The notes beneath the pieces are model-generated. The model searched no databases and was not told where the DNA came from. It worked only from the letters and a program-made list of their open reading frames with translations. DNA of 64,000 nt, taken from Polyangiaceae bacterium. Its GTDB lineage: Bacteria; Myxococcota_A; Polyangia; Polyangiales; Polyangiaceae. Shown here piece by piece: positions 796 through 60,843 of this stretch; position 1 is the stretch's first letter; each line of letters begins with the position of its first letter. The stretch lies in assembly GCA_015075635.1 (NCBI GenBank), contig JABTUA010000001.1:372001-436000 (forward strand), read 5' to 3'. The position numbers and the translations under genes were made by a program.

Positions 796-801
796 TAGCC
801 T
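796..801 (+). promoter_or_regulatory. possible -10 hexamer TAGCCT upstream of the pseudokinase
   Basis: TAGCCT lies 18 nt before ATG 820. It resembles the TANNNT boxes seen elsewhere in the window but sits further from the start, so this is a weak call. Confidence 0.3.
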
Positions 802-819
802 AGGGGGCTGGCGCCCAGC

Positions 820-2445
820 ATGACCAGCTCGCCCGCAGAACCAGCCCACATCGGACGCTACGAGCTGGCGCTCTCGCTCGGGCAGGGGCCGTTGGGCGAG
901 CTCTGGGCCGGTGCCGCCACCGACGGGCCAGAGCAGGGCCGAGTGGTCTCCATTCGGCGGATCCGCTTCGGAGGCACGGCGCCCGCCCTGCGCAAGCTCT
1001 CGGCGCGGGCCGCGGAGAGCGCGCGCTCGCTGCGACACCCCAAGGTTGCCGCGGTCCTCGAGGTGCTCGAACGCGATGACGAGCTCGTGATCGTCAGCGA
1101 GCACGTGGACGGCGAGTCGCTCGCCGCGCTGATGAAGCAGGCCATCAACGCCAAGAGCCCCATCCCGCCGGGCGCCGCGCTGGCCATCGTGAGGGACGCG
1201 GCGGACGCGCTGATCGCGACGCGCGACCACTTTGGGAAGGATCCGAGCGCGCCCGAACCGTTCGGGGGCCTGGTCCCGGACGGGCTGGCGGTGGCAGCTT
1301 TCGGCGAGACCATGCTGACCGAGCCTGGGGTCCTGGCAGCCCTGGGCGACGCCGCCGTCCGCTACGCCGCTCTTCCGTATCGCGCGCCGGAACAGCTGGG
1401 CGTCCCGCCGAGGCGCGACGAGCGCGCGGACGTGTACAGCCTCGGCGTGCTGCTCTGGGAGATGCTGGCGAATCGACCGCTGTTCCGCTCGCGGGCCCCG
1501 AGCGACACCGAAGCCGAGACCGAGCTCCGCAGGCTGGTGTTGTCAGGGCCCATTCCGCCGCTCGACACTCTGCCGCGGCAGGGTGCGCCGCTGCCCTCCT
1601 CGCTGGTCGTGCTGGTGGGTCGTGCGCTGTTTCGGGATCCGGAGCAGCGCTTCCCGTCGCTCTCGGCCTTCCGCGAGGCGTTCGACGAGCTACCCCGGGA
1701 TCTGATCGCGCCGCCGGAGCAGGTGGTCGTGACCTTGGAGCGTCTGGCGCGGAACACTCTCGAAGCGCGGCGCGCCACCCTGACGCAGATGAGCGAGGGG
1801 CGCTTGAGCTTCTCGCCGGAGTCGACCCGCGCGACCGCCCGGCCCGCGGCACCGGATGCGCCGGTCGCGGTGGTGATGCCGGCGCTCGCCTCGCTCGACT
1901 CCTTTGCCACACAGGAGGCACCCACCAAGCCGCGCCGCAAGCTGACGCCGGTCGCCTTGCCCGTACCCGAAGGTCTGTCTGCGAAGGAGACCCCGCGCAT
2001 CGGTAGCCAGCGTGGCTCGTCGAAGCCGCCGCCCCCCGTGCCCGCTTCGGCGAAGCTCGAGCCACCGGCGCGGGAGTCCACCAGCTCGGGCGTCAGCGTT
2101 CCGGAAGAGCCCATCCATGCAAAGCCGTCGAGTCTGCGGCGCTTCGCACCGCTCATCGTCGTGGCGGTCGGCGTCGCCGCGATCCTGATCGCCGTGCTCT
2201 CCCGCTCCGGCGGCTCGGGCGAGGCAGGGCCCCCCGCAGCGACCAGCACGCCCAGCGTCGAGAGGCCCGTCGCGACCGCGCCGACGCTGGAGCCCAGCGC
2301 CACCGAGCGCCCCCCGGTCGAGCCCAGCGCAGCGCCGAGCGCCGAACCGGCGCCGAGCGCCTCTGCCGCGCGGCCCAGACCCCGCGACGAGCGACCGGAG
2401 CCCAGGCCCAAAGAACCGAAGGGCTTCCGGCCCAAGGGGATCTGA
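820..2445 (+). CDS. transmembrane protein-kinase-like protein, probable pseudokinase
   Basis: 541 aa. Residues about 13-280 have the Hanks kinase layout: IGRYELALSLGQGPLGELW at the nucleotide loop, PYRAPEQL at the activation-segment end, and ADVYSLGVLLWEML in subdomain IX. The catalytic parts are lost. The VAIK lysine position reads VVSIRRIRF, there is no HRD motif, and the DFG region reads VAAFGETML. It therefore probably binds or scaffolds and does not phosphorylate (inference). One membrane helix lies near 443-463, followed by a Ser/Pro/Ala-rich segment and the basic tail FRPKGI. It follows the kinase ending at 785 and precedes the TPR gene by 28 bp. Confidence 0.85.
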   Translation: MTSSPAEPAHIGRYELALSLGQGPLGELWAGAATDGPEQGRVVSIRRIRFGGTAPALRKLSARAAESARSLRHPKVAAVLEVLERDDELVIVSEHVDGESLAALMKQAINAKSPIPPGAALAIVRDAADALIATRDHFGKDPSAPEPFGGLVPDGLAVAAFGETMLTEPGVLAALGDAAVRYAALPYRAPEQLGVPPRRDERADVYSLGVLLWEMLANRPLFRSRAPSDTEAETELRRLVLSGPIPPLDTLPRQGAPLPSSLVVLVGRALFRDPEQRFPSLSAFREAFDELPRDLIAPPEQVVVTLERLARNTLEARRATLTQMSEGRLSFSPESTRATARPAAPDAPVAVVMPALASLDSFATQEAPTKPRRKLTPVALPVPEGLSAKETPRIGSQRGSSKPPPPVPASAKLEPPARESTSSGVSVPEEPIHAKPSSLRRFAPLIVVAVGVAAILIAVLSRSGGSGEAGPPAATSTPSVERPVATAPTLEPSATERPPVEPSAAPSAEPAPSASAARPRPRDERPEPRPKEPKGFRPKGI

Positions 2446-2459
2446 TCGAGCCAGGGTGC

Positions 2460-2465
2460 TATCGT
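2460..2465 (+). promoter_or_regulatory. -10-like TATCGT before the TPR gene
   Basis: TATCGT lies 8 nt before ATG 2474 with no Shine-Dalgarno sequence between. This spacing would place transcription initiation at or next to the start codon. Confidence 0.45.
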
Positions 2466-2473
2466 CTGCGGAC

Positions 2474-3493
2474 ATGGCTCGCAGGCTGGCAGTGACGCTC
2501 CTGGCCGTTGGTCTGCTGGTCGCCCAGGCGGCGGCTGCGGCTGGCGTCCCCATCGAGAAGGCCAGCAAGGAGCAGCTGAAGGCGGCTCAACGCACCTTCG
2601 AGGCGGCCGACGGCCTGTTCGACGCCAAGCGCTACTCGGAGGCCATCACGGCCTACCGAGCCTCCTACGAGATCGTCGCTAGCCCGAACTCGCGGCTGAT
2701 GATCGCGCGCTCGCTGGCCGCCCTCGGCAAGCTCGACGACGCCTACTACGAGCTGGTCGGCGCGGTGAGCGACGCCAAGAGCGCAGCGGCTGCCGACGAG
2801 AAGTACGCGCCGACGCTCAAGGCTGCCGAGGCCGAGCTCGCCTCGCTCGAGCCGAAGGTCGGGCGTGTGGAGCTGGTGCTCTCGGACGCGTTGAAGGAGG
2901 CGAAGATCAACGTCGGGCCCCGCACGCTGACGGTGCTCGAGCACGCGGCACCCGTCGTGGTCACGCCGGGCAGCGTGGTCGTGGTGGCGGCGTTGCCGGA
3001 CGGCCGCTCGGTGCGCCGCGAGCTCTCCGTGGCCGCAGGTGAGTCGGAGAAGGTGCAGCTCGACCTGCCCGCGGAGTCCGAGCCGTCGCCGACGCCCAAA
3101 CCCGAAGCACCGACCCCGGCGGCGTCCGGTGCCGCTGCGACGAACGATCTGGGCAAGCCCAGCTCGCTCCGGCCCTACGCCTACGTCGCGGGCGGGGTCG
3201 GGGTGGCGGGCCTGGCCACGTTCACGGTCTTCGGCCTGATGAACAAGTCCAAGTTCGACGACCTGGAATCGAGCTGCACCAACGGGAGCTGCGGACCAGG
3301 GCGGCAAGACGACATCGACGCCGGACGCCGCTACCAGACCGTCGCCAATATCGGGCTCGCAGTCGGGATCGTCGGCATCGGCGCGGGCACGACGCTCTTC
3401 CTCTTGTCCGGGAGCTCGAAGAAGAACGAGCGAGCTGCGACGATGCGGGTGCGGGTCGCGCCAGGGTTCGCGTCACTCAGCGGTCAGTTCTGA
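2474..3493 (+). CDS. periplasmic TPR-like protein with two C-terminal membrane helices
   Basis: 339 aa, starting at the ATG that opens a clean signal peptide (MARRLAVTLLAVGLLVAQ). Residues about 30-140 form TPR-like helical hairpins. A small beta-rich segment comes next, then a Pro-rich linker. The C-terminus has two hydrophobic helices (PYAYVAGGVGVAGLATFTVF and NIGLAVGIVGIGAGTTLFLL) separated by a loop with a Cys pair (CTNGSC). The paralogue at 13931-14887 has the same arrangement and Cys pair. The stop overlaps the next ATG by one base (TGATG), so translation with the downstream lipoprotein is probably coupled. It may be an envelope partner of the kinases (inference). Confidence 0.8.
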   Translation: MARRLAVTLLAVGLLVAQAAAAAGVPIEKASKEQLKAAQRTFEAADGLFDAKRYSEAITAYRASYEIVASPNSRLMIARSLAALGKLDDAYYELVGAVSDAKSAAAADEKYAPTLKAAEAELASLEPKVGRVELVLSDALKEAKINVGPRTLTVLEHAAPVVVTPGSVVVVAALPDGRSVRRELSVAAGESEKVQLDLPAESEPSPTPKPEAPTPAASGAAATNDLGKPSSLRPYAYVAGGVGVAGLATFTVFGLMNKSKFDDLESSCTNGSCGPGRQDDIDAGRRYQTVANIGLAVGIVGIGAGTTLFLLSGSSKKNERAATMRVRVAPGFASLSGQF

Positions 3494-4455
3494 TGAAGAA
3501 ACACACCTTCGTCTCGCGCTCGCTCGCCTTCGTGCTACCGCTCGCGGGCGTCATCGCCTGCACCTACGACTACGGCCAGTTCGACAGCTCGGGCACGGGC
3601 GGTGGCGCCGGCACGAGCTCCGGCGGGAGCGCGGGCACGAGCGGCGGCGGCGGCGGCACCACCAGCGGCGGCGGCACCACCAGCGGCGGCGGCACCACCA
3701 GCGGCGGCGGCACCACCAGCGGCGGCGGCACCACCAGCGGCGGCGGCACCACCAGCGGCGGTGGCACCACCAGCGGCGGCGGCACCACCAGCGGCGGCGG
3801 CACCACCAGCGGCGGCGCGGCCGGCAGCGGCGGCGCGGCCACTGGCGGAACCGGTGGTGGCTGTGGGAACGGCGAGAAGCTCTGCGGGACGAGCTGCGTG
3901 CAGGTGACGGACCCGGCCACGGGCTGCAGCGGCCCGAGCTGCGCGGCCTGCGCGCTGGCCAACGCCAGCGCCAAGTGCGGGGGAACGGGACCCGTGTGTC
4001 AGGTGGACCAGTGCACCGGGGTGTTTGCCAACTGCGACAACCAGAACGCGAACGGCTGCGAGCAGGATCTGTCGAAGAGCGACAACCAGCACTGCGGGAG
4101 CTGCGCGAACAACTGCACCACACAGGGCTTCACCACCGGCTTCTCCTGCTCGAATCTGGTCTGCCGCTGCACCAGCCCCGACCAATGCAAGGACGGCGGC
4201 AGCGGGACGGCCACCTGCAACGGGAACGGACGCTGCACCTGCACCGGCACGGAGTGCATGGCCGGCGAAGCCTGCAGAAAGGTCGGCGCGAACCAGGTCT
4301 GCTCGTGCAACGGCGGCGCGGCCTGTGTGCCGGGCCAGGTCTGCTGCAAGGGCCCGCCAGGCTGCAAGGATCTGCAGACGGACACGGCCAACTGCGGTGC
4401 CTGCGGTAAACAATGCGCGACCGGGCAGAGCTGCGTCGGCGGCCAGTGCCAGTGA
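3493..4455 (+). CDS. Gly/Ser-rich, Cys-rich lipoprotein
   Basis: 320 aa. A signal peptide ends in a lipobox (GVIAC), so the mature protein starts at that Cys. Just after it lies TYDYGQFDSSG, resembling FDYDDYDTSGG in the lipoprotein at 13188. Residues about 53-106 are nine perfect 6-residue GGGTTS repeats, probably a flexible spacer away from the membrane. Roughly 200 Cys-rich residues follow, with many CGxC and CxxxC pairs that are likely disulfide-bonded in the envelope. ATG 3493 overlaps the TPR stop. No enzymatic domain is recognised. Confidence 0.8.
   Translation: MKKHTFVSRSLAFVLPLAGVIACTYDYGQFDSSGTGGGAGTSSGGSAGTSGGGGGTTSGGGTTSGGGTTSGGGTTSGGGTTSGGGTTSGGGTTSGGGTTSGGGTTSGGAAGSGGAATGGTGGGCGNGEKLCGTSCVQVTDPATGCSGPSCAACALANASAKCGGTGPVCQVDQCTGVFANCDNQNANGCEQDLSKSDNQHCGSCANNCTTQGFTTGFSCSNLVCRCTSPDQCKDGGSGTATCNGNGRCTCTGTECMAGEACRKVGANQVCSCNGGAACVPGQVCCKGPPGCKDLQTDTANCGACGKQCATGQSCVGGQCQ
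3649..3810 (+). repeat. nine 18-bp tandem repeats coding GGGTTS
   Basis: Nine consecutive units of the form ggcggcggcaccaccagc, almost identical at the DNA level, lie in frame inside the lipoprotein gene. A single synonymous change (ggt for ggc) is visible near 3771. Such homogeneous arrays usually vary in copy number by slippage. Confidence 0.95.
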
Positions 4456-4515
4456 TCGGAGCTTGCGCCGGGCCTCGGCCTCTGCCATGTGGCGTCGGCT
4501 CTCGGGAAACTGCGC

Positions 4516-6233: not shown

Positions 6234-6266
6234 GCCCGAGGGTAGCTCGGATGCAGGAAGTTCGGA

Positions 6267-6272
6267 TAGCCT
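6267..6272 (+). promoter_or_regulatory. -10-like TAGCCT before the CNB-kinase
   Basis: TAGCCT lies 7 nt before ATG 6280 in the 46-bp divergent gap, with no Shine-Dalgarno sequence between. Confidence 0.45.
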
Positions 6273-6279
6273 GGCGCGC

Positions 6280-7599: not shown

Positions 7600-7610
7600 C
7601 GCTCCGAGCC

Positions 7611-9656
7611 ATGACCGAGGCGACCACCGAACGCACTGCACCGCTCGCGCGGCGCGCTCCGGGCCTGATCGTGCTCGCGGCCGGGCTCGCCGTCTCGGCG
7701 GCCGCCTTCTGGGTGGCGCGCGAACGGGCCCGGGCCGACTGGCAGGCGGACTTCGAGCGAAAGGCGAGCGACGTCTCCGCGGCGCTGGTCAACGGGCTGG
7801 ACGTGCCGCTCGAGGCCTTGCAGTCCTTGCCCGCGCTGTTCGCCAGCTCCGAAGAGGTCACGCGCAGCGAGTTCCGCGCCTTCGTGGCACCTACGCTGAA
7901 GCGCCACCCGGCCATCTACGCCCTGGAGTGGCTGCCGGAGGTGCCGGGCGCCGAGCGCGCGAAGTGGGAAGCGCGCGCGCGCGCCGAAGGTGTGGCGGAC
8001 TTCCAGTTCACCGAGGTCGGCCCGTCGCTAGCCATGGTTCCGGCCAAACCGCGGCCCAGGCACGTGCCGATCTTCTACATGGAGCCCTCGGAGCCCAAGG
8101 CGCTCGGCTTCGACATCGCCTCCGATCCGATCCGGCTCGACCCGTACGACCGGGCCAAGAGCTCGGGGCGCGCCGTCGCCTCCGGGCGCATCCGTCTGGT
8201 CGAGGACGCTCCCGGCGTGCACTCCATCGCCGTCTTTCAACCCGTGCACCGCACCCGCGCCGGCGGCGCGCTCGAGTACCTCGGAGCGGGCGTGGAGGTC
8301 TTTCGCCTGCGCCCGGTCGTCGAGCGCGCGCTCAGGGATTACGACACGGCGAGGTACGCGCTCACTCTCTACGACCAGGACTCGGCGCCGGCAGAGGAGC
8401 GCGTCCTGTACGAGAAAGCAGGGCCGGCCGCCCGCGCTCGAGCCAGCTTTCAGAAGTCGTTCGCCTTCGCCGACCGCAACTGGACGCTGGACGTCAGCAC
8501 CGCGGATCCCGGCTCCGCGGGTCGTTCGTTCGTGCTCTTGGTCGGCGCCCTGCTCAGCCTGCTCGGCGCCGTCGTGGCTCAAGGCGCCCAGACCATCGCG
8601 GGGTTGCGCCGGCGGGTCGCGAAGGTGGAGCAGCTCGGGCAGTACACGCTGGAGAGCAAGCTCGGCGAGGGTGGCATGGGAGTGGTCTATCGCGCCTCCC
8701 ACGCCATGCTGCGGCGTCCCACGGCGCTCAAGCTCCTGCGCAAGGAGCACGGCCACAGCGCGGGGCTCGCGCGCTTCGAGCGCGAGGTGCAGCTCACCAG
8801 TCAGCTGACCCACCCCAACACCATCGCCGTCTACGACTACGGGCGGACTCCGGATGGCGTCCTCTACTACGCGATGGAGTACATCGACGGCATCGACTTC
8901 GAGCACCTGGTCCGCGCCGAGGGACCGCTGCCGCCGGGGCGCGTCGTCTTCCTGATGCGCCAGGTGCTCGGCTCCCTGGCAGAGGCCCACTCCGTCGGCC
9001 TCATCCACCGCGACATCAAGCCGGCCAACCTGATGCTGTGCGAGCGCGGCGGGCTCTCGGACTTCGTCAAAGTGCTGGACTTCGGGCTCGCCAAGCAGCT
9101 GCGCGATCCGAGCGCCGTGGCGGAGACCCACGCCAACGCGGTGATCGGCACACCGCACTACCTGGCGCCGGAGAGCATCGACTCCACGGGCGCGCAGGGA
9201 TCGAGCGCCGACATCTACGCCGCGGGCGCGGTCATGTACTTCTTGCTCACTGGCCACACGGTTTTCGAAGCGAAGACGCTGCTCGAGGTGTGCGCCCACC
9301 ACCTGCACACGCAGCCCCAGCCCCCGAGCTCTCGGCTCGGTCGCCCGCTGCCCGCGGGGCTCGAGGCGGTGGTGCTGGCCTGCCTGAGCAAGGATCCCGC
9401 GAAGCGCCCGGCGTCCGCGGCCGCGCTGGTCGGCGTGCTCGACGAGCTCGGGGACGTGGAGCGCTGGACCCGGCGCGACGCCGCGCGCTGGTGGGAGGTC
9501 CGCGGGCGCGAGCTGATCGCGAGCCGCGAGGCGGAGCAAAGGGAGCGCGCTGAGCGCGCCCGCGAGCGCACGGTCGAGATCGACGTCGTGTCGCGCACCC
9601 TCGGGGAGAGCGAGCCGATGCCTACTTCGGTGCCAGTGTCGCGCCGTAGATCTTGA
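7611..9656 (+). CDS. CHASE-domain transmembrane Ser/Thr protein kinase
   Basis: 681 aa. A membrane helix lies at about 18-36. A periplasmic CHASE sensor domain follows (about 45-290; LQSLPALFASSEEVTRSEF and PAIYALEWLPEV are typical), then a second helix at about 306-326. The cytoplasmic kinase spans about 344-610, with LGEGGMGVVYRA, TALKLL, IHRDIKPANLML, DFGLAKQL and GTPHYLAPE all intact. CHASE domains bind small extracellular ligands and usually cap histidine kinases or cyclases; here the output is a Ser/Thr kinase. It is probably co-transcribed with the CNB kinase. Its 3' end overlaps the convergent lipoprotein gene by 35 bp. Confidence 0.92.
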   Translation: MTEATTERTAPLARRAPGLIVLAAGLAVSAAAFWVARERARADWQADFERKASDVSAALVNGLDVPLEALQSLPALFASSEEVTRSEFRAFVAPTLKRHPAIYALEWLPEVPGAERAKWEARARAEGVADFQFTEVGPSLAMVPAKPRPRHVPIFYMEPSEPKALGFDIASDPIRLDPYDRAKSSGRAVASGRIRLVEDAPGVHSIAVFQPVHRTRAGGALEYLGAGVEVFRLRPVVERALRDYDTARYALTLYDQDSAPAEERVLYEKAGPAARARASFQKSFAFADRNWTLDVSTADPGSAGRSFVLLVGALLSLLGAVVAQGAQTIAGLRRRVAKVEQLGQYTLESKLGEGGMGVVYRASHAMLRRPTALKLLRKEHGHSAGLARFEREVQLTSQLTHPNTIAVYDYGRTPDGVLYYAMEYIDGIDFEHLVRAEGPLPPGRVVFLMRQVLGSLAEAHSVGLIHRDIKPANLMLCERGGLSDFVKVLDFGLAKQLRDPSAVAETHANAVIGTPHYLAPESIDSTGAQGSSADIYAAGAVMYFLLTGHTVFEAKTLLEVCAHHLHTQPQPPSSRLGRPLPAGLEAVVLACLSKDPAKRPASAAALVGVLDELGDVERWTRRDAARWWEVRGRELIASREAEQRERAERARERTVEIDVVSRTLGESEPMPTSVPVSRRRS

Positions 9657-10647: not shown

Positions 10648-10653
10648 TCGAGC

Positions 10654-10659
10654 AGAATA
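10654..10659 (-). promoter_or_regulatory. -10-like TATTCT before the LamG lipoprotein
   Basis: On the minus strand TATTCT lies 6 nt before the ATG at 10647, with no Shine-Dalgarno sequence between. Confidence 0.45.
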
Positions 10660-10673: not shown

Positions 10674-10679
10674 TAGCTT
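10674..10679 (+). promoter_or_regulatory. -10-like TAGCTT before the GTG-start lipoprotein
   Basis: TAGCTT lies 6 nt before GTG 10686. It sits 14 bp from the opposed hexamer of the divergent gene, so the two promoters probably exclude each other. Confidence 0.45.
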
Positions 10680-11711: not shown

Positions 11712-11780
11712 TCTCGTTGTGGGCTGGTGTGGTGCCGACCCCTACCTCCCAGGTCGGGCTTGATTTCCATCACCTCGGGC

Positions 11781-11786
11781 TATGAT
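11781..11786 (+). promoter_or_regulatory. possible -10 hexamer TATGAT before the second kinase module
   Basis: TATGAT lies 15 nt before ATG 11802 and is closer to the classical -10 than most boxes here. The spacing implies a short leader. Confidence 0.4.
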
Positions 11787-11801
11787 CCGGCTCGGAGTGG
11801 G

Positions 11802-13169
11802 ATGTCGCTAGGAGCGGGCTCGCTGATCGCCGACAAGGTTCGGCTCGTTCGCCTCCTGGGCTCGGGAGGGATGGGGCACGTCTGGCTGGCCGATCACCTG
11901 GGCCTCGACACGCAGGTCGCGGTGAAGCTGATCGCCGCCGAGCACGCAGCGATCCCCGAGGCGGTCGCCCGCTTTCGCCAGGAGGCGGCCGCGGCGGCGA
12001 AGATGAAGTGCCCACACGCGGTGCAGATCCTCGACTACGGGGTCCAGGAGGGCTGTCCGTTCATCGTCATGGAGCTGCTCGAGGGCGAGGACCTCGCCCA
12101 TCGCATCCAGCGCGCCGGCCCGCTGCCGGTCGCGTTCGTCGGCGACGTGATCACACAGGTGTGCAAGGCGCTTTCCCGCGCGCACGCGCTGGGCATCGTG
12201 CACCGTGACATCAAGCCGGAGAACGTGTTCATCTCCGAGGATCAGGGCGAACGGCTGATCAAGGTGCTCGACTTCGGCATCGCGAAGCGCCGTGGTGACA
12301 GCGAGCTCAGCATGACCTCCACCGGCGTCGCGCTCGGTTCGCCTTACTACATGAGCCCCGAGCAGGTGGTGAGCGCCAAGACCGTCGATCCTCGCTCGGA
12401 TCTCTGGTCGCTCGGCGTCGTCGCGTACCAGGCGATGACCGGCAAGCTGCCATTCGTCGGCGAAACGGTAGGCGCGCTGGCCATCGCCATCAATGAGGGG
12501 ACCTACGAGCCGCCGAGCGCCGCGCGTCCCGGGATCCCCGGCGCGGTGGACGCCTGGTTCCAACGCGCCCTGGTCAAGGATCTGAGCGCGCGGTTCCAGA
12601 CCGCCAAGGAGATGGCAGAGACCTTCGCGCTCACCACCGGTCGCAGCGCCGGCAAGGAGGAATTCGGTGAGGCCGAGACCGACGTGGCGCCGTGTCCCGC
12701 CGCGAAGCTGGACTGCGTCGACAACTGCCCGACCGTGCGCGTGAGCACACCGCTGCTCGAGTTGCACGGAGTGCCGTCTCCGCCGGAGCAAGCGCCGGTC
12801 GCCGCGCTGTCGGGCACGCACATGACGGCGACCGTGAGCCAGAGGCTCGACCGCTCCCGCACTCCGGTAGTCTGGGGGATTGCCTCGGCGGCCGTGTTGC
12901 TCCTGGCGGTCTTCGGGATCGGCTTGGCGTTCGCGTTGCGCAACGGGGCGCCCGCGGCCGACGTCGCGAGTCAAGGCCAGACGGAGCCGGCTCCTGGATC
13001 CCCCGCGCTGACGGAGCCTCAGCCGACCGTCACGCCGTTCGTGCAGGTCCCCGAGACGGCTCCCGACCCCGCCCCGTCGGCCTCGGCGGCACCGTCCGCG
13101 CCCAAGCCTGCCGTGGCCAAGCCAAGGCTCCCGGTGCCACCTCGACCCAAGAAAGACCGGGGATTCTAG
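11802..13169 (+). CDS. transmembrane Ser/Thr protein kinase
   Basis: 455 aa from MSLGAGSLIADKVRL, where the family N-terminus begins; an in-frame extension to 11727 is less likely. The kinase domain, about 10-275, is complete: LGSGGMGHVWLA, VAVKLI, VHRDIKPENVFI, DFGIAKRR, GSPYYMSPEQ. A linker of about 80 residues carries an unusual Cys cluster (CPAAKLDCVDNC). One membrane helix lies at about 356-378. The exterior part is Pro/Ala/Ser-rich and ends in a basic tail (PRPKKDRGF). It is followed by a Cys-rich lipoprotein and a TPR protein paralogous to those at 2474-4455. Confidence 0.93.
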   Translation: MSLGAGSLIADKVRLVRLLGSGGMGHVWLADHLGLDTQVAVKLIAAEHAAIPEAVARFRQEAAAAAKMKCPHAVQILDYGVQEGCPFIVMELLEGEDLAHRIQRAGPLPVAFVGDVITQVCKALSRAHALGIVHRDIKPENVFISEDQGERLIKVLDFGIAKRRGDSELSMTSTGVALGSPYYMSPEQVVSAKTVDPRSDLWSLGVVAYQAMTGKLPFVGETVGALAIAINEGTYEPPSAARPGIPGAVDAWFQRALVKDLSARFQTAKEMAETFALTTGRSAGKEEFGEAETDVAPCPAAKLDCVDNCPTVRVSTPLLELHGVPSPPEQAPVAALSGTHMTATVSQRLDRSRTPVVWGIASAAVLLLAVFGIGLAFALRNGAPAADVASQGQTEPAPGSPALTEPQPTVTPFVQVPETAPDPAPSASAAPSAPKPAVAKPRLPVPPRPKKDRGF

Positions 13170-13187: not shown

Positions 13188-13934
13188 ATGACACGGCCAC
13201 CCTGGAAGGCCCTGGCGGCTTCGCTCGCTGGCGCGGCGATCACGAGCTGTTTCGTCGCGTTCGACTACGACGACTACGACACGTCAGGCGGCTCCTCCGG
13301 AGGCGACGCCGCCGTCGAAGGCGGTGCCGGCGGCGCTACGAGCGGCGGCGGCGCGCCAGGCGGCGGCGGCGGCGTGGGCGGCTGCGACACCAGCGCGTGC
13401 GGACCAGCTGGGGATTGCTTCGATTGGTCCTGCAGCTGTGGGAAGGTGAACAAGCCCAGCGGCTCGCCGTGCGGGCACAGCTGCGTGCTCGGCATCTCCA
13501 CGCAGAAGACCTGCAACCCTTCGGGGGTCTGCGTTTCGAGCACCAGCGACTGCAGCCCCTACACCTGCGATCCAGCCACCAACGCCTGCCGGACCAAGTG
13601 CGTGCAAACGAGTGACTGCGCTGACAGCTTCATGTGCTCCGGTGACCAGTGCGTGGATTGCAGGACCTGCGGCGAATGGCTCACCGACGTGCAGGTCCCG
13701 TTGCTCTGCCCTGGCGCCACGGGTTGCGCGCAGTGGACGAACCTCGTGCAGAACTGCTGCTCGGCCTCGACGTGCCAGTCTGCTTGCTCCGGCTCCGGAG
13801 ACCTGTGCGCCGGAGGGAACACGAGTTGCTACTCCTCCGGGCCACCGTCCTCGACCTGCTCGCAGTGCCTTCAGGGGAAGAACCCTTGCGCGAGCTACCT
13901 CTCGTTGTGCGAGCAGGACAAGGGCCACCTATGA
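13188..13934 (+). CDS. Cys-rich lipoprotein, second kinase module
   Basis: 248 aa. The signal peptide ends at AITSC (Cys 21). FDYDDYDTSGG follows the anchor, matching the position and style of YDYGQFDSSG in the lipoprotein at 3493. A short Gly/Ala/Ser spacer comes next, then about 180 residues with many Cys in pairs (CDTSAC, CFDWSCSC, CRTC, CCSASTC), probably disulfide-bonded. Its stop overlaps the next start by 4 nt (ATGA). No enzymatic motif is recognised. Confidence 0.8.
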   Translation: MTRPPWKALAASLAGAAITSCFVAFDYDDYDTSGGSSGGDAAVEGGAGGATSGGGAPGGGGGVGGCDTSACGPAGDCFDWSCSCGKVNKPSGSPCGHSCVLGISTQKTCNPSGVCVSSTSDCSPYTCDPATNACRTKCVQTSDCADSFMCSGDQCVDCRTCGEWLTDVQVPLLCPGATGCAQWTNLVQNCCSASTCQSACSGSGDLCAGGNTSCYSSGPPSSTCSQCLQGKNPCASYLSLCEQDKGHL

Positions 13935-14905: not shown

Positions 14906-14911
14906 TACCCT
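14906..14911 (+). promoter_or_regulatory. -10-like TACCCT before the acylase gene
   Basis: TACCCT lies 5 nt before ATG 14917, the shortest spacing in the set. Confidence 0.4.
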
Positions 14912-20410: not shown

Positions 20411-20416
20411 TAGCAT
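20411..20416 (+). promoter_or_regulatory. -10-like TAGCAT before the ferritin-like lipoprotein
   Basis: TAGCAT lies 6 nt before ATG 20423, with no Shine-Dalgarno sequence between. Confidence 0.45.
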
Positions 20417-21991: not shown

Positions 21992-21997
21992 TACGGT
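21992..21997 (+). promoter_or_regulatory. -10-like TACGGT before the glycosyltransferase
   Basis: TACGGT lies 9 nt before ATG 22007. Confidence 0.4.
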
Positions 21998-26910: not shown

Positions 26911-26916
26911 AGTGTA
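26911..26916 (-). promoter_or_regulatory. -10-like TACACT before the 331-aa LuxR-type regulator
   Basis: TACACT lies 9 nt before the GTG at 26901 on the minus strand. Confidence 0.4.
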
Positions 26917-26929: not shown

Positions 26930-29293
26930 CTAGTGGAGGGCCCATCCATCCAGGCAGACCGGTCGCGCGCTGGTGTCCCGGGTGGTGACGCTGAGCTCGA
27001 TGTCGTGCTCTCCCGGGGCCAGGCGGGAAGTTTCGATCACCTCGAACCGAGCCCCCGGGAGGTTCGGCACCCGCAGCACGCCGACCCTCACACTATCCAC
27101 GCGCAGCTCGGCACGGGCAGCCTTTCGCCCCCAGATCATGGCGGAGTCCTCGAAGCCGCCGACCAGCACCAGCTTCCGCCCCAGCGCGCCGCGCCAGGCC
27201 ACCGTGGCGGGCCTACCCCGTTCGGGTGACAGCCACGCCATCCCCCGTACCGCGCCGCCGACCCTACAGGGCCGGGAGGGTGCACTGCCGGGGAGGCTCG
27301 AGAGCGTGTGGCTCACTCCGAGCCCCGCCACGCCGAGCACGCGATAGTAGCCGAAGCGCCGGTCCTCGAGCGGCGTGCCCAGGGCGCGGAGCTGACGCAA
27401 GAGCTCGTTCTCCCGCCCGGCTCGCAGCACGAACCAGGCCCGAGGGCGACCCAGCGCACCGAACGGCCCGAGCGCGGGGTCCAGCACGTCGCGCGCGGCG
27501 CCCGCGGGCAGCGCCTTCGGCCGCACGAACGCGACGTCCCACTCCGCGCGATCCACCAGAGCGTCCCCGGGGGCAAGAGCGCGCGCCACGTGCTCGCGCG
27601 CGGCGCGCTGACCGACGTCGCGCTGCGCCACGATCAACGTCCACGACACGTAGGCTGCGGCGGCGCCGGACGAAGCCAGCGCGACGATCGCGACGCGAAG
27701 CACACGCCTCGACGGCATCGCCGGCTTCCGCGCGAGCTCGAGCTGGTGTCCTCCCGCGGCGGCGAAGGCCGCGAACAGCGAGCACCCCAGGTAGAAGCTG
27801 TCCCAGATGATGCCGTTGAACATGATCAGGAGCACGTAAGCGGTGCCCGCGGGCGCGATGTAGCGACGGGCGCCGCGCAGGAAGAACGCGACGACCAGCA
27901 GCACGAGCGGGAGCACGAGCTGTGCCCGGGGCATCCACGCGGTGGCCTGGGCCTTGTAGAGCGGACCGGAGAAGCCGAACTTCTCCCAGAACCAGTCCTG
28001 GTGCACCGGACCGTACTCGACCAACCAACGGAAGGTGCCGAACCAGAAGGCGTCGGGGTTCTGTGCCACGAACGGCACGAGCAGCGCCGCGGAGACCACG
28101 CCGGTGAGGGCTACCTTCGGCAGCGCCGCGCGGAGGCCGAGATCTCGTACCAGTGCGACCAGCACGAACGGCGCCACCACCGCGGCGAAGTGCCGGGTCG
28201 CGAGCGCGACGCCGAGGAAGAACGCTGCGAGCCACCACTTCTTGCGCAGCGTGCACGCCAAGACGAGCGCGAGCACCAGCCACCAGGCGTGTGGCTCCGC
28301 GTAGATGCCGTTCCACGCCATGCTGGGGCTGAACAGCCAGACCGCACCGAAGGCCGCCGCCGCGCCCTGCGCCCGCTCGCGCCACGCCGGGCGCACACCG
28401 CTCGCGACCCAGAACAAGCCGAGCACCACCGCAGCATCCGCGACCAGGCCCATCACGCGGAAGTCGAGCGCGCCGAAGAAGCGCGGGACGCACCAGACCA
28501 GCCACATCCCTGGCAGGTAGGTCAGCGGCACCACGCTCCCGCGCTGCATCTGGTGCAAGCCGTAGGGGTTCAGCCCGGACAGGAACGCGTCCTGCGCGTC
28601 CTTCACCAGGGGCAGCATGTCTCGGGTGGCCGGATCGATCTTCCAGGTCTCGAGCCCCACCCAGCGCAAGCCGAGCCCCGCCCCGAGCAACGCCAAGAGG
28701 CGCACCAGCGGCGGGACGCGCGGCACGAACAGGAGCGCGATCAGGACGATGGCCGCGGTCCAGGTGAGCGTGTCCAGATCAGGCCGCGCGTAGGGCAGCA
28801 CCGGGAGGGACTGCACGCGCTGCTTGCCCATCAGGTGCGCGAGGAACACCAGGGCTACCAGCAGCCCCAGGCGCTCCACGTCGCGCCCGCTCGAGCGCCC
28901 GCGGAGCAGCCGGCCGCCCAGCGCCACCGGGTAGGCCGCGAGCACCGGCGCGTACATGAAGAGCTCACGCTGCCGCAGCGTCCCGATGGGTGGCATCGGG
29001 TACTCCTTCGGCGCGAGCAGCGGCAGGAGCCAGCGCGCCATCAGCCAGAGGCCCGCGGCAATGGCGGAGAGCCCGAGCGCGCGCCCCAGCCACGTGAGCC
29101 AGCGCGGCGGTGCGAAGGGCGCCGGCTCCGGCGGCGCGATCCAAAGCACACCGGCGAACAGCGCGAGCAGACCGCTCGTGGCGAGGACGGTGTCGCCGAA
29201 GGTGGTGCCCACCCACTCGGCGACGACGACCAGCGGCAGGAGCCATACGAACAGCTCCGCCAGAGCTCGCCGCGCCGACCCGAAGACCCGCAT
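26930..29293 (-). CDS. large multi-pass membrane glycosyltransferase-like protein (GT87/DUF2029-like)
   Basis: 787 aa with about a dozen hydrophobic segments in the first ~560 residues. A soluble beta-rich C-terminal domain of about 200 residues (VAWRGALGRKLVLVGGFEDS, APGEHDIELSVTTRDTSARP) follows. SGLNPYGLHQMQRGSVVPLTYLPGMWL resembles the NPY...YPP loop of GT87-type mannosyltransferases that use polyprenyl-phosphate-mannose. The next gene upstream on this strand encodes a putative synthase of that donor 21 bp away, supporting this assignment (inference). Confidence 0.72.
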   Translation of the reverse strand: MRVFGSARRALAELFVWLLPLVVVAEWVGTTFGDTVLATSGLLALFAGVLWIAPPEPAPFAPPRWLTWLGRALGLSAIAAGLWLMARWLLPLLAPKEYPMPPIGTLRQRELFMYAPVLAAYPVALGGRLLRGRSSGRDVERLGLLVALVFLAHLMGKQRVQSLPVLPYARPDLDTLTWTAAIVLIALLFVPRVPPLVRLLALLGAGLGLRWVGLETWKIDPATRDMLPLVKDAQDAFLSGLNPYGLHQMQRGSVVPLTYLPGMWLVWCVPRFFGALDFRVMGLVADAAVVLGLFWVASGVRPAWRERAQGAAAAFGAVWLFSPSMAWNGIYAEPHAWWLVLALVLACTLRKKWWLAAFFLGVALATRHFAAVVAPFVLVALVRDLGLRAALPKVALTGVVSAALLVPFVAQNPDAFWFGTFRWLVEYGPVHQDWFWEKFGFSGPLYKAQATAWMPRAQLVLPLVLLVVAFFLRGARRYIAPAGTAYVLLIMFNGIIWDSFYLGCSLFAAFAAAGGHQLELARKPAMPSRRVLRVAIVALASSGAAAAYVSWTLIVAQRDVGQRAAREHVARALAPGDALVDRAEWDVAFVRPKALPAGAARDVLDPALGPFGALGRPRAWFVLRAGRENELLRQLRALGTPLEDRRFGYYRVLGVAGLGVSHTLSSLPGSAPSRPCRVGGAVRGMAWLSPERGRPATVAWRGALGRKLVLVGGFEDSAMIWGRKAARAELRVDSVRVGVLRVPNLPGARFEVIETSRLAPGEHDIELSVTTRDTSARPVCLDGWALH

Positions 29294-30783: not shown

Positions 30784-30789
30784 TAGCCT
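30784..30789 (+). promoter_or_regulatory. -10-like TAGCCT before the small Tat lipoprotein
   Basis: TAGCCT lies 7 nt before ATG 30797. Confidence 0.45.
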
Positions 30790-32693: not shown

Positions 32694-32699
32694 ACGTTA
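32694..32699 (-). promoter_or_regulatory. -10-like TAACGT before the HAD phosphatase
   Basis: TAACGT lies 10 nt before the ATG at 32683 on the minus strand. Confidence 0.35.
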
Positions 32700-35301: not shown

Positions 35302-35307
35302 AGTGTA
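35302..35307 (-). promoter_or_regulatory. -10-like TACACT before the Cys-repeat lipoprotein
   Basis: TACACT lies 7 nt before the ATG at 35294 on the minus strand. Confidence 0.45.
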
Positions 35308-35422: not shown

Positions 35423-35428
35423 TACGCT
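35423..35428 (+). promoter_or_regulatory. -10-like TACGCT before the transglutaminase operon
   Basis: TACGCT lies 7 nt before GTG 35436. Confidence 0.45.
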
Positions 35429-40592: not shown

Positions 40593-40598
40593 TATCCT
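40593..40598 (+). promoter_or_regulatory. -10-like TATCCT before the frameshifted lipoprotein
   Basis: TATCCT lies 7 nt before GTG 40606. Confidence 0.45.
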
Positions 40599-42337: not shown

Positions 42338-42343
42338 TACCGT
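42338..42343 (+). promoter_or_regulatory. -10-like TACCGT before the lipoprotein
   Basis: TACCGT lies 6 nt before ATG 42350. Confidence 0.45.
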
Positions 42344-49251: not shown

Positions 49252-49257
49252 ATCCTA
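49252..49257 (-). promoter_or_regulatory. -10-like TAGGAT before the histidine kinase
   Basis: TAGGAT lies 6 nt before the GTG at 49245 on the minus strand. Confidence 0.45.
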
Positions 49258-49323: not shown

Positions 49324-49329
49324 TAGCTT
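49324..49329 (+). promoter_or_regulatory. -10-like TAGCTT before the large lipoprotein
   Basis: TAGCTT lies 9 nt before ATG 49339. Confidence 0.4.
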
Positions 49330-51876: not shown

Positions 51877-51878
51877 AA

Positions 51879-51909
51879 AAAACCCCTGGTGACGAGCACC
51901 AGGGGTTTT
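51879..51909. terminator. bidirectional Rho-independent terminator
   Basis: A perfect 13-bp stem (aaaacccctggtg / caccaggggtttt) with a 5-base loop, an A-tract before it and four T after. It begins 2 nt past the stop at 51876, unusually close. Confidence 0.9.
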
Positions 51910-54166: not shown

Positions 54167-54172
54167 CCGGTC

Positions 54173-54178
54173 AGGTTA
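54173..54178 (-). promoter_or_regulatory. -10-like TAACCT before the DUF2330 fusion
   Basis: TAACCT lies 6 nt before the ATG at 54166 on the minus strand and shares two base pairs with the opposed TATCCT. Confidence 0.45.
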
Positions 54179-54182
54179 TCCT
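54177..54182 (+). promoter_or_regulatory. -10-like TATCCT before the esterase lipoprotein
   Basis: TATCCT lies 7 nt before ATG 54190; its TA base pairs are shared with the divergent TAACCT. Confidence 0.45.
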
Positions 54183-54189
54183 CTCGGGT

Positions 54190-56586: not shown

Positions 56587-56594
56587 TCTGGCGC

Positions 56595-59063
56595 TCAGAG
56601 CCTGAGCACCTCCCAGCGCACCCGGCGCTCGGGGCCGCCGCTGACCACCAGGCGCACGTCACCGAAGCTGAGCTCCGACCCGGTAGCGAGACTGGTGCTC
56701 ACCCGCAGGCGCTTCACGTCGCCCTTCTCGTCCGCCGCGAAGCAGCCGGAACAGCTCGCCAGATCGGCCTCTGCGACCTCGACGAGCTTGGCGGGATTGC
56801 CGGAGTCGCTGCCCAGGCGGAACGCCTCGAGCAGCGTGCCGTCCGCCAGCTCGAGGCGCGCCTGCCCGAGCGGGCCGAGCACCACCTTCACGTCCAGGCG
56901 ATCGGCGACGTCGTCGAGACTGACCACGTCCGGATCCGTGGCGGGCGCCAGGGTGTCGATGCTGGGATCGAGCAGCGGCAGGATCTGGTTCTCGACCAAG
57001 AGAAGTGGCAGCTGTCCGAGCGGCGCGGGGATGCTCACGACCTGATCGCCGGTGAAGAGCCGGTAGCTCTCGAAGTGCACGAAGCGACCCGGTGGGAGCC
57101 AGGTCTTCTTCTCCACCACGCCGCGACGCACCACCGGCGAAGTGTACAGGGCCGGCCCCAGGTAGAAGGCGTCGTCTACGGCGCGGGCGGCCGCTGCCTC
57201 CGGGTGCAGCAAGAACGGGTGCAGGGTGAGCGGGCGCCCGCTCGCACTCGCCTCGCGCGCCAGCGTCAGGAAGTACGGCTGAAGCCGGGTGTGCAGGCGC
57301 GAGTAGCGCGCGTACACCTCCGTGGTCTCCGCGTCGCTCCACAGCGTCCACTTGGTCTGCTTGCCCAGCGGGTTCGCGCAGGCGTTCTGTTCCATCATGA
57401 TGGGCGAGACGGCGCCCAGCTCCACCCAGCGCAGGAACACCTCCTTGTCCCGCGGCACGTCGGTGATGCACTTGAAGCCGGTCACGTCGCTGCCCCAGTA
57501 GGGCACGCCGCTCATCGACAGGTTCACGCCGCCGCGCAACGACGACGGCAGGCCCTGGCTCTCGTCGAAGGTCGCCTCGGCGTCGCCTCCCCACACTGCG
57601 GGCACGTACTTCTGCGTGCCGCTGTAGCCGGAGCGCACGAAGAACAGGTAGTCGCCCGGGCGCTCCTTCTCCATCAGATCGTGGGCCGCCTTCGCGGACA
57701 GGACCGGGTACTCGTTGTGGACCTCGTCGCCGCGGCGCCCGTCGTGGAACACGGCGTCGCGCGGCGTGTATTCGCCGAAGTCGTGCATCCAACCGTCGTA
57801 CCCGAGGTCGAGCGTGCGCTTCAGCAGTCCCTGGTACCAGCTGACGGCGGCAGGGTTGGTCAGATCGATCGCCGCGATCGAGAGCAGTTGCCCTGAGATG
57901 AACTCGGTGAGCGTGGGCTCGCCATCCGGACCCTTGACGAAGTAACCTTGGCTCTTGCCGTAGGCGTAGTCCGCGGCGGCGTTCGGGTGGTTCTCGGCGA
58001 CGTACGGGTTGTTGTACGCCATCACCTTGTAACCCGCGGCGTGCGCGGCCTTCGTCCAGTCCGCGAGGGCCTGCTCTTTGCCCTTGTGCGACAGCGCCGG
58101 CAGGAAGTGGACGGCGTCGTCCACGGCGGTGCACGCCACGTCCTTGTCGCGCATCAGCTGCCACTCCAGCACGCCGTCCACCAGCGAGCCCGAGCCGACG
58201 CGGCGGCGCGGTCCGAACACCCACTGCGCGGGCACCGGCGGCCGGCCCGTGTCCTCGGTGTACTGATCGAGGCTCTTCAGCGGATCGGCGTTGACGTAGA
58301 TGGTCGCGTCGAACTGCGTGGTGTTCGCCGCCAGCCGCCAGGCGTCCTCGCGATCGGACGCGAAGTGGAGCTCGGTCCGGTAGGTCGTGTCCGCGTGGAG
58401 CGCGTAGCCGCGGCTCGACAGGAAGAACGCGACCGGAAAGTAGGTCATGCTCGGCCCGTTGGGCCAGGGGTTCTCCGGCCCGATCGGCGTCTTCTCGCCC
58501 TTGCCGAGCGCGCCCTCCTCGGCCCAGCTGTAGATCGGCCAGCCGCGGTGATCGACGCTGCCGAAGCGCTCGCCCATGCCGAAGAAGCTCTCGTCCGGGC
58601 CGGAGCGGAAGCCGAGCGTGGTCTTGTTCAGCTCTCCGGGGTCATCCATCGCGAGCGACAGCCGCACGCGCGCGCCCTCGACGCTCACGCGCAGCGTCAA
58701 ACGCGCGCCGTCGCCCTCGAGGTCCAGGAACGCCCAGCTCTCACCCGACTCGCGCAGCGTCGCGCGGGACACGCTCCGCCAGGGCTCCTCGTTGGCGCGA
58801 TACCCGTCCCAGCCGGGCAGGCTCTGGGCGATGAAGTCCGGGGTGTCGAGCGTCGCCGCGGGGCCACCATAGCCGTCGCGGCCTTCGCCTCGCGTCGTCT
58901 CCAGCACCGTCTTGCCGTCCGCGTCCCGGAGCTCCAGCGAAAACGGCGAGAGCCGGACCTGCACGCTGGCGCCCTCGGAGACGAGAAGCGGGCCCCGGTC
59001 CAGGCGCTCGTCGTCGCAGCCGAGCGAAACCAAGCCGATCGCGAGCACCAAGCAACGCTTCAT
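56595..59063 (-). CDS. GH31 family glycosidase lipoprotein
   Basis: 822 aa. The lipobox is VSLGC. The N-terminal beta-sandwich runs to about 280 and the barrel follows. Asp428 in GYDGWMHDFGEY is the expected nucleophile and Asp494 in YVPAVWGGDAEA the likely acid/base. GVPYWGSDVTGF and FYLGPALYTSPV are also GH31-like. GH31 enzymes cleave alpha-glucosides, alpha-xylosides or sulfoquinovosides; HDFGEY resembles the sulfoquinovosidase/alpha-glucosidase branch but does not fix the substrate. Lipid anchoring suggests envelope action. Confidence 0.87.
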   Translation of the reverse strand: MKRCLVLAIGLVSLGCDDERLDRGPLLVSEGASVQVRLSPFSLELRDADGKTVLETTRGEGRDGYGGPAATLDTPDFIAQSLPGWDGYRANEEPWRSVSRATLRESGESWAFLDLEGDGARLTLRVSVEGARVRLSLAMDDPGELNKTTLGFRSGPDESFFGMGERFGSVDHRGWPIYSWAEEGALGKGEKTPIGPENPWPNGPSMTYFPVAFFLSSRGYALHADTTYRTELHFASDREDAWRLAANTTQFDATIYVNADPLKSLDQYTEDTGRPPVPAQWVFGPRRRVGSGSLVDGVLEWQLMRDKDVACTAVDDAVHFLPALSHKGKEQALADWTKAAHAAGYKVMAYNNPYVAENHPNAAADYAYGKSQGYFVKGPDGEPTLTEFISGQLLSIAAIDLTNPAAVSWYQGLLKRTLDLGYDGWMHDFGEYTPRDAVFHDGRRGDEVHNEYPVLSAKAAHDLMEKERPGDYLFFVRSGYSGTQKYVPAVWGGDAEATFDESQGLPSSLRGGVNLSMSGVPYWGSDVTGFKCITDVPRDKEVFLRWVELGAVSPIMMEQNACANPLGKQTKWTLWSDAETTEVYARYSRLHTRLQPYFLTLAREASASGRPLTLHPFLLHPEAAAARAVDDAFYLGPALYTSPVVRRGVVEKKTWLPPGRFVHFESYRLFTGDQVVSIPAPLGQLPLLLVENQILPLLDPSIDTLAPATDPDVVSLDDVADRLDVKVVLGPLGQARLELADGTLLEAFRLGSDSGNPAKLVEVAEADLASCSGCFAADEKGDVKRLRVSTSLATGSELSFGDVRLVVSGGPERRVRWEVLRL

Positions 59064-59129
59064 GCGCGGAGCCTGGCGCGATCGCCGGGCGGCGTCGAGT
59101 CGATCTGGTCGCTCTCCGGCTGCGGATGG

Positions 59130-59135
59130 TACGCT
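59130..59135 (+). promoter_or_regulatory. -10-like TACGCT before the MopE-like lipoprotein
   Basis: TACGCT lies 7 nt before ATG 59143. Confidence 0.45.
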
Positions 59136-59142
59136 GCCGCCC

Positions 59143-60843
59143 ATGGTGCGACGTGACACGAGGGGCCTTCCGTTCGCTGTCTGCTTGATGCTGGGGGCGG
59201 CAGCGGGCGCAGTAGCGTGCGGGGAAGAGTTCGAGCCGTCGTCGGGCGGTGGCACCGGGGGTACCGACGGTGGCGCCGGCACTGTTGGCAGCAGCGCCGG
59301 GGGTGTCGGCGGCGGCGGCACCGGTGGCAGCAGCACCGGAGGAGTCGGCGGCGGCGGCACCGGTGGCAGCAGCGCCGGCGGGACGGGGGGTTCGCCGGCA
59401 GGCGGCGCCAGCGGGTCGGGTGGCTCCGGTGGCGCGCCGGAGTGCACCACGGACAGCGAGTGCGACGACGGCAAGGCGTGCACCGGCAAGGAGACGTGCA
59501 GCGGGGGCAAGTGCCAGGCGGGCACCCCGGTGACCTGCAACAACCCCGATCCGGCCAACTGCACGGCCGGCTGCAAGGAACCCGGCGGGACCTGCGCCGT
59601 CACCGGGAACGACGCGGACGGAGACCAGCACAAGGCGAACTGCGCCGCGGATCCCGGCGACGACTGCGACGACACGAACCCCTCCACCTACGCGGGCGCC
59701 ACGGAGCTGTGCGACGGCAAGGACAACAATTGCAACGGGAAGGACGACCTCCAGGACGGGCTGACGCTGAGCGGCGTCACGAAGAAACTCGTCGGTGAGG
59801 CCGGAAAGGACCACTACTCGCCGGAGATCGCGTGGTGCCCCGGGGGCTCCAAGTTCGTCATGGTCTGGACCGACACCCGCGAGGGCAGCCCGCGGATCTA
59901 CGCCGCGTCGGTGACGCCCAGCGGGGTCGTTGGCCTCCAGAAGAACGTGTCGGGGACGGTCGCCGGCGAGGCGGTCGAGCCGCGCATCGCCTGCCACGGG
60001 AGCGAGTGCGCGGTGGTCTGGCGCCAAACCGAGTTGCCCATCGACGTGTTCTTCCAGCGCCTCGACTGCGACGCGGCGATGGTAGGCGCCAAGGTGAACG
60101 TGAGCGAAACGCCTGGTGGTCTGAACCTGAGTCCGTCGGTCGTGCGGTTCGGCAACGACTGGATCGTGAGCTTCCTCGAGAAAGACGCCATGGGGCAGCC
60201 TGCGGCCTATCGAGTCGTCGGCGCCGATGGAACGCTGAAGACGAGCACCCAGTTCGTCAGCGAGTCGACCGGGCTCCGTTACCAGATCGTGTCGGCAGCC
60301 ACGACCACCCACGTGGGGTTCGCCTGGGAGCTGACGAACAACGTGGTGGAGTGGGCACGCATCGACTCCGCGCTGACCCTGTCCTCGACCCAGGCGCTCA
60401 GCCCCAAGCCTGCGCCGACGGGCCAGGTCTCGAAGGACGCGGCCATCGCGACGCACCTGGGCAACCTCGCCATCGCTTGGAGGACCAGCACTGCTTCCAG
60501 CGCCAAGATCGAATACGTGGAGCGCACCGGCGGCGGGAGCACGGTCTGCACCGCCGCTTCACTGGCGAGCTACCCGGAGATGTACGTGATGGGCGTCGCC
60601 AGCCACAAGGACGGCGCTCTGGTCGCCGCCCTGACCGGCGCGTCCAACATCTTCGACATCAAGCTCGTGCGCGCGAAGAACTGCACGAAGCTCGACGAGC
60701 TCACGATCGGTTCCCAGACCTTCGGGACGGGGATCGGCGTGCGCACCGGGAGCATCGCCGGGGGCGCCGGCGGGTACGCGGTCGTCTGGGCCGCGGCCCA
60801 GAGCATCTACGGGCGCTTCGTCGGGCCGAACCTCTGCGACTGA
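59143..60843 (+). CDS. Gly-rich lipoprotein with MopE-like metal-binding motif
   Basis: 566 aa. The lipobox is GAVAC. A Gly/Ser/Thr spacer runs to about 105. A Cys-rich part (CTTDSECDDGKACTGKETC) follows, then a MopE-type motif near 170-210: DADGDQHKANC, DDCDDTNPSTYAGA, ELCDGKDNNCNG, with acidic side chains that probably hold Ca2+ or another metal. The C-terminal ~350 residues are beta-rich with propeller-like repeats. Surface location likely. Confidence 0.82.
   Translation: MVRRDTRGLPFAVCLMLGAAAGAVACGEEFEPSSGGGTGGTDGGAGTVGSSAGGVGGGGTGGSSTGGVGGGGTGGSSAGGTGGSPAGGASGSGGSGGAPECTTDSECDDGKACTGKETCSGGKCQAGTPVTCNNPDPANCTAGCKEPGGTCAVTGNDADGDQHKANCAADPGDDCDDTNPSTYAGATELCDGKDNNCNGKDDLQDGLTLSGVTKKLVGEAGKDHYSPEIAWCPGGSKFVMVWTDTREGSPRIYAASVTPSGVVGLQKNVSGTVAGEAVEPRIACHGSECAVVWRQTELPIDVFFQRLDCDAAMVGAKVNVSETPGGLNLSPSVVRFGNDWIVSFLEKDAMGQPAAYRVVGADGTLKTSTQFVSESTGLRYQIVSAATTTHVGFAWELTNNVVEWARIDSALTLSSTQALSPKPAPTGQVSKDAAIATHLGNLAIAWRTSTASSAKIEYVERTGGGSTVCTAASLASYPEMYVMGVASHKDGALVAALTGASNIFDIKLVRAKNCTKLDELTIGSQTFGTGIGVRTGSIAGGAGGYAVVWAAAQSIYGRFVGPNLCD

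Follow-up and report, generated by a model that had tools for sequence, protein, structure and literature searches.

In a 64,000-nucleotide (nt) stretch of a Polyangiaceae bacterium genome (assembly GCA_015075635.1, contig JABTUA010000001.1, positions 372,001 to 436,000; hereafter the window), an initial annotation had listed nineteen genes in which a TANNNT hexamer ends 5-10 nt before the start codon, and had proposed that these boxes are -10 elements of leaderless messenger RNA (mRNA). Our analysis supports this proposal. The boxes are very probably -10 elements, likely of housekeeping promoters of the RpoD/sigma-70 type, from which transcription is predicted to begin at, or a few bases from, the start codon. 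Support comes from the positional enrichment of the box, the G of an extended -10 element, a weak -35 signal, specificity for start codons and a low frequency of Shine-Dalgarno (SD) sites. Each of the 19 listed boxes fits TANNNT and lies precisely at the claimed gap, the gap being the number of bases between the end of the box and the start codon, and every one of the 19 starts opens an open reading frame (ORF) of 122-845 codons. The tetramers GGAG, GAGG and AGGA are absent between box and start in all 19 genes, as the annotation had said of the SD sequence; such a tetramer lies inside or before the box in two of them (49245 and 54166).

Positional enrichment of the TANNNT box

We examined 1.264 Mb out of the 9.47 Mb genome (5 contigs). 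In a first sample of 864 kb with 623 genes, starts were picked by codon use only and upstream DNA was ignored; a separate hold-out sample of 400 kb contained 292 genes with starts picked in the same way. Boxes at gaps 5-10 numbered 94 in the first sample, where 10.5 were expected from gaps 15-59, and 39 in the hold-out, where 5.5 were expected. When all 64 XYNNNZ hexamer classes were ranked upstream of 312 leading genes, TANNNT came first (53 versus 6.7) and the runner-up was enriched less than 2-fold. The same genes contain 3054 internal ATGs in frame, and these showed no such TANNNT peak. ORFs shorter than 150 codons were dropped from the ranking, those shorter than 120 from the codon-only-start counts and those shorter than 110 from the model described below, together with genes too close to a segment end.

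The same peak was obtained without gene calling. Upstream of ATG in the 1.264 Mb, TANNNT occurred 52, 49, 26, 41 and 28 times at gaps 6, 7, 8, 9 and 10, compared with an average of 15.4 over gaps 14-30. The excess upstream of GTG was weaker (52, 44, 29, 44 and 39 at gaps 6-10 versus 32.8), and none was found upstream of TTG, CTG, ATC or GTC. Over the whole genome, a pattern count of TANNNT...ATG, from which GTG starts were left out, gave 1370 near sites (gap 5-9) and 631 far sites (gap 14-18), an excess of about 740. The genome-wide positional enrichment whose absence would, according to the initial annotation, have refuted its proposal was found in the 1.26 Mb and, by ATG pattern counts, in the entire genome.

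We give almost no credence to an origin by chance or by gene calling, with TA-rich hexamers lying near mis-chosen starts or in-frame TAG or TAA codons ending an upstream ORF. ORF calling does produce an over-representation of in-frame TAG/TAA boxes, at gaps 6 and 9, among codon-called internal genes, but the peak persists when no genes are called, for TA[CT]NNT and TA[AG]NNT alike, and TGANNT gives no peak. Counts from displaced upstream DNA are near zero (see below), and 100 kb of E. coli K-12 showed no clear excess (169 near versus 152 far). We dropped a rule of two gap peaks, at 6-7 and at 9. The gap-9 peak, strong with 29 of 120 box genes in the first sample, was not so in the hold-out with 8 of 56, and ORF calling is itself biased by in-frame stops towards gaps 6 and 9.

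How common the box is was assessed with a three-class model (box, SD or neither) of 636 genes in the first sample and 301 in the hold-out, 937 together, counting only genes with an exact TANNNT. A box was assigned to 120 of the 636 and 56 of the 301 genes, that is 176 of 937, or about 19%. Because the model was seeded with TANNNT, these counts give a frequency and are not motif discovery; the hexamer ranking, the codon-only-start counts and the counts without gene calling are independent of it. The same model and rule applied to upstream DNA shifted by 30, 45, 60 and 90 nt returned 10, 2, 2 and 0 box genes in the first sample and, with shifts of 45, 60 and 90 nt, 2, 1 and 0 in the hold-out. 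Shares estimated by EM (43% box) were set aside, as shuffled upstream DNA itself gives 22-24%.

An SD tetramer was present at 10 of 120 box genes versus 155 of 516 others in the first sample, and at 3 of 56 versus 83 of 245 in the hold-out, differences that are partly built into the classes. The box was found at 113 of 522 leading genes versus 33 of 272 internal genes (Fisher p 0.001), which is a tendency only. Likewise, the earlier statement that internal operon genes show ordinary SD sites holds as a tendency (93 of 272 internal versus 102 of 522 leading genes) and fails as a rule. Its example, the gene at 13188, does have AAGGA 9 nt upstream, but a TANNNT is also present there, at gap 15.

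Promoter features and competing readings

The box is accompanied by features expected of a promoter. In the first sample, 76 of 120 boxes (63%) have a G two bases upstream, a share that is 40% for the sample's 1179 TANNNT as a whole (p 3e-7). A match of at least 4/6 to TTGACA was found at a spacer of 17 in 17 of the 120 box genes, whereas no other spacer between 10 and 25 exceeded 5 such genes. The hold-out again had its highest mean TTGACA match at spacers 17 (1.84) and 18 (1.64). Among the listed genes of the window, 17 of 19 have the G two bases before the box and 8 of 19 have the TGN of an extended -10 element. The description of the two preceding bases as gc, ga or gg fits 16 of the 19, the exceptions being 22007 (tc), 49339 (cg) and 54190 (gt).

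The box occupies the position of the SD sequence and replaces it, so that it could be thought of as part of an ordinary leader that contacts the ribosome or enhances translation, and not as a promoter. We consider this very unlikely. The -35-like signal at 17-18 bp, the extended -10 G and the preference for leading genes are promoter features, and in the parts of the Deinococcus study covered (PMC12340547) a ribosome site could not substitute for the same motif. Given the extended -10 G, the weak -35 signal, the start-codon specificity and the low SD frequency, a promoter fits better than a ribosome site.

As a promoter, TANNNT would be recognised by the RpoD holoenzyme; the G at the second base upstream would assist, as would, in some genes, a TTGACA-like element at a distance of 17-18 bp. 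With a gap of 6, the expected +1 would coincide with the start codon's first base. The message would then have neither a leader nor an SD site, and the ribosome would recognise the 5'-terminal AUG or GUG itself. SD genes are used in this genome too, more often inside operons. Canonical-looking RpoD-type regions 2.4 and 4.2 were found in one (L001) of five sigma loci examined. Separately, the 9.47 Mb genome has 48 matches to Sigma70 region 2, pointing to many alternative sigma factors.

A transcription start is expected to have a pyrimidine at -1 and a purine at +1. The start codon is preceded by C in 114 of 176 box genes, more often than in SD genes (109 of 222, p 0.002) or in the remaining genes (281 of 539, p 0.004), which is expected if transcription begins at the codon; as a pointer to a 5' end at the start codon, this C is only suggestive. 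It also bears on a possible, though less probable, alternative, namely that the boxes are real -10 elements whose transcripts start a few bases before the codon and carry very short leaders (about 1-5 nt) instead of being strictly leaderless. The spacing from -10 to +1 varies in known promoters, gaps 8-10 are enriched as well as gaps 6-7, and just 4 of 8 gap-9 genes in the hold-out have C before the start. Conversely, the main peak is at gaps 6-7, which is nearly the only peak in two other Myxococcota genomes (G128 and G003), and 24 of 29 gap-9 genes in the first sample carry a C directly upstream of the start codon, which would suit initiation at the codon even at this gap.

Several observations weigh against the reading of the boxes as -10 elements of leaderless mRNA. 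The gaps are spread over 5-10 nt, so some messages may carry leaders of 1-4 nt, and boxes also precede closely spaced same-strand genes (the 33 of 272 above). The -35 signal is uneven: TTGACA matches of at least 4/6 were found in only 2 of 56 hold-out box genes at spacer 17 and 4 of 56 at spacer 18, only 2 of the 19 listed genes (22007 and 42350) reach 4/6 at spacers 16-18, and no -35 peak at 17-18 was seen in boxes from G084, G128 or E. coli. The lack of this signal in the boxes of other genomes slightly lowered our confidence. When window loci were compared with those of two relatives (L009 and L010), the box of 32683- (TAACGT, 32694..32699, minus strand, gap 10 to ATG) corresponded in both to a TACGGT 16 nt before the ATG, and the box of 6233- (see below) was kept in neither. 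Finally, the signature was not seen in 73 of 141 genomes of the phylum, and the first 60 kb sample of G070, a genome of the same genus, gave 0 of 30 genes.

Boxed genes in the window

Starts of boxed genes are not always found by start models. Of the 19 listed starts, 9 are also chosen by a codon-only start caller and 15 by a model that takes upstream signals into account as well. The four starts missed by the latter, which are missed by the former as well, follow TAGCTT at 10674..10679 (gap 6 to GTG 10686), TAGCAT at 20411..20416 (gap 6 to ATG 20423), TATCCT at 40593..40598 (gap 7 to GTG 40606) and TACGCT at 59130..59135 (gap 7 to ATG 59143), all on the plus strand. By eye, each of the four is followed by a signal peptide with a lipobox-like Cys motif at its end; an automatic lipoprotein test flags three of them as lipoprotein-like and does not flag 20423.

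This test, a regular expression combined with a hydrophobicity criterion and not a trained predictor, scores 9 of the 19 listed genes as having lipoprotein-like N-termini. Among the 937 modelled genes, such N-termini occur in 58 of 176 box genes (33%) versus 27 of 222 SD genes (12%; Fisher 6e-7), and the bias is also seen when only leading genes are considered (40 of 113 versus 17 of 102, p 0.002). When no genes are called and ATG ORFs of at least 100 codons are sorted by what precedes them, 49 of 139 with a box are lipoprotein-like, versus 41 of 521 with an SD site and 11 of 136 with a distant box, many of the latter two kinds not being real starts. In G084, which belongs to another family, the bias is absent (8 of 53 box versus 19 of 178 SD genes, p 0.46), and no significant bias was found in smaller samples of G128, G003, G070, a pool of family f1 and G065. 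We consequently rejected lipoprotein bias as a phylum trait and keep it as a feature of this genome only. A tentative explanation, to which we attach limited confidence, is that leaderless promoters are favoured for lipoproteins in this genome, the missing leader being perhaps related to membrane-directed translation or to the ease with which stand-alone surface genes are captured, and that other families of the phylum lost the leaderless mode.

For 16 window starts, 8 of them from the list of 19, we examined the corresponding loci L009 and L010. The box of 2474 (TATCGT, 2460..2465, plus strand, gap 8 to ATG) is kept as a TANNNT at gap 9 in both orthologues. That of 22007 (TACGGT, 21992..21997, plus strand, gap 9 to ATG) is kept in the L009 orthologue as TAGCGT, also at gap 9, L010 having no match. 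The box of 26901- (TACACT, 26911..26916, minus strand, gap 9 to GTG) has a counterpart in the L010 relative (39% identity), where TAGCCT lies at gap 6 before a GTG; L009 is not alignable there. For 35294- (TACACT, 35302..35307, minus strand, gap 7 to ATG) the L010 orthologue has TAGACT at gap 6, and L009 has no match. The N-terminus of 6280 could not be aligned, and 30797 and 35436 had no match in the relatives. In a separate observation, the window, L009 and L010 share a TAGCGT box 13 nt upstream of the ATG of 29293-; this box would give a leader of about 7 nt.

The other listed boxes on the plus strand are TACCCT at 14906..14911 (gap 5 to ATG 14917, a penicillin amidase family protein), TAGCCT at 30784..30789 (gap 7 to ATG 30797), TACGCT at 35423..35428 (gap 7 to GTG 35436), TACCGT at 42338..42343 (gap 6 to ATG 42350) and TAGCTT at 49324..49329 (gap 9 to ATG 49339). 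On the minus strand, TATTCT at 10654..10659 lies at gap 6 to ATG 10647- and TAGGAT at 49252..49257 at gap 6 to GTG 49245-. A twentieth box, outside the earlier list, is TACCCT at 6239..6244 on the minus strand, at gap 5 to ATG 6233-. This gene is divergent from 6280, 46 bp away, which has its own box (TAGCCT, 6267..6272, plus strand, gap 7 to ATG).

The divergent genes 54166- and 54190 are 23 bp apart. Their boxes, TAACCT at 54173..54178 (minus strand, gap 6 to ATG 54166-) and TATCCT at 54177..54182 (plus strand, gap 7 to ATG 54190), overlap in the TA at 54177-54178, and the sequence AGGTTATCCT thus carries TATCCT on one strand and TAACCT on the other. It is possible that this site acts as a two-way leaderless promoter. 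In the parts covered of work from the Grainger group (PMC12825309), bidirectional promoters similarly have overlapping, oppositely facing -10 elements; the pair described here differs in that its boxes share only the TA and both adjoin start codons. Another pair of like make-up was found in the own-genome sample (C1b, 173442/173470). A general class of bidirectional leaderless promoters was not established: in the 1.26 Mb, near/near sites numbered 5, versus 6 and 2 near/far and 2 far/far, and a whole-genome fixed-gap pair pattern found 9 times here, versus 1 for a backward control, was equally common in G119 (12 versus 0), a genome without the leaderless signature.

The window has a GC content of 70.7%. 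Three protein kinase-domain genes (820-2445, 7611-9656 and 11727-13169), one of them with a CHASE sensor domain, lie within about 12.4 kb. For the protein encoded at 26930-29293, the scan of named species genomes gave two relatives, 'Polyangiaceae bacterium MAG.220' and 'Myxococcales bacterium NC_groundwater_781'.

Distribution in Myxococcota and relation to known systems

Near and far TANNNT...ATG counts were scored as z in 141 Myxococcota genomes of 39 families (numbered f). The score exceeded 5 in 50 genomes, was 3-5 in 18 and lay between -3 and 3 in 73. Within the window's class, 25 of 29 genomes, its own included, scored above 3 (the exceptions being G035, G088, G021 and G119), as did 43 of 112 genomes of other classes, and 20 of the 39 families have a genome with z above 5. 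No genome scored above 5 in f14 (15 genomes, none above 3), f12 (14, two above 3), f18 (11, two above 3) or f16 (7, one above 3); in these four families the leaderless signature was lost or never gained. In AT-rich genomes a high background masks small excesses in such counts, and the AT-driven background correlates negatively with the excess (Spearman -0.46). We rejected the idea that GC content alone decides whether the signature is present, since some low-background f18 genomes, G018 and G121 among them, also lack it.

Samples of 40-60 kb from 14 other genomes were too small and were replaced by these whole-genome counts; among them only G084 was clear (9 versus 0.8), G016, G025 and G111 were suggestive and the rest were not. 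For G070, whose first sample was empty, the whole-genome count (1051 versus 471) is as strong as that of the window's own genome. Gap 6-8 peaks occur in genomes of three other families. The sampled profile of G084 peaks at gaps 6-8 (19, 20 and 14 versus 4.8), and those of G128 (6 and 6 versus 1.2) and G003 (7 and 6 versus 0.8) peak at gaps 6-7; samples of G070, the f1 pool, G065 and G056 showed no sharp gap peak. The Rhodococcus megaplasmid pRHL1, intended as a positive control, gave a weak result (269 near versus 221 far).

Mycobacterium tuberculosis, with its high-GC genome, reportedly has many leaderless genes beside SD genes. There, in the parts covered of Cortes et al. 2013 (PMC3898074), 5' ends were mapped, in another phylum, whereas the evidence presented here is drawn from sequence only. 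Leaderless genes associated with TANNNT are already a known kind, predicted across bacteria including delta-Proteobacteria (PMC3160421) and proven in Deinococcus (PMC12340547), as far as the portions of these papers covered go. According to those portions, 8 of the 33 delta-proteobacterial genomes in Zheng et al. 2011 were positive for predicted leaderless genes, with a mean of 15.8% (5.7-20.6) of genes, as compared with 19% of sampled genes here; as here, TANNNT in their TA-led genes lies about 12 bp before the start, replaces the SD sequence and is linked to operon position (PMC3160421). The main text of that paper makes no mention of Myxococc or Anaeromyxobacter, and the parts covered contain neither a survey inside Myxococcota nor a lipoprotein analysis, both of which are given here.

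The -10-motif of Deinococcus-Thermus, as described in the parts of PMC12340547 covered, is the same hexamer, located mostly 6-7 bp before the ORF, and most of its genes lack a classical -35 element, as here. Mutation and RpoD interaction show that it is a promoter of leaderless mRNA. It is found at nearly one third of D. radiodurans genes versus about one fifth of sampled genes here, and it is experimentally proven whereas our boxes are known from the DNA letters alone. A literature search, judged by titles and abstract openings and mostly outside subscription journals, found nothing on mapped leaderless genes in Myxococcota, and the portion of PMC5397173 covered makes no mention of deltaproteobacteria, Myxococc or Sorangium. 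To the known kind, our analysis adds a Polyangiaceae-type genome, a patchy distribution over 141 Myxococcota genomes and a lipoprotein bias in this genome.

If the boxes are leaderless promoters, starts in such genomes, many of them GTG, may be mis-called by tools that seek mainly SD sites, and the box would help to correct them. The patchy presence of the signature within a single phylum would also offer a natural comparison for studying why some lineages retain leaderless genes and others lose them.

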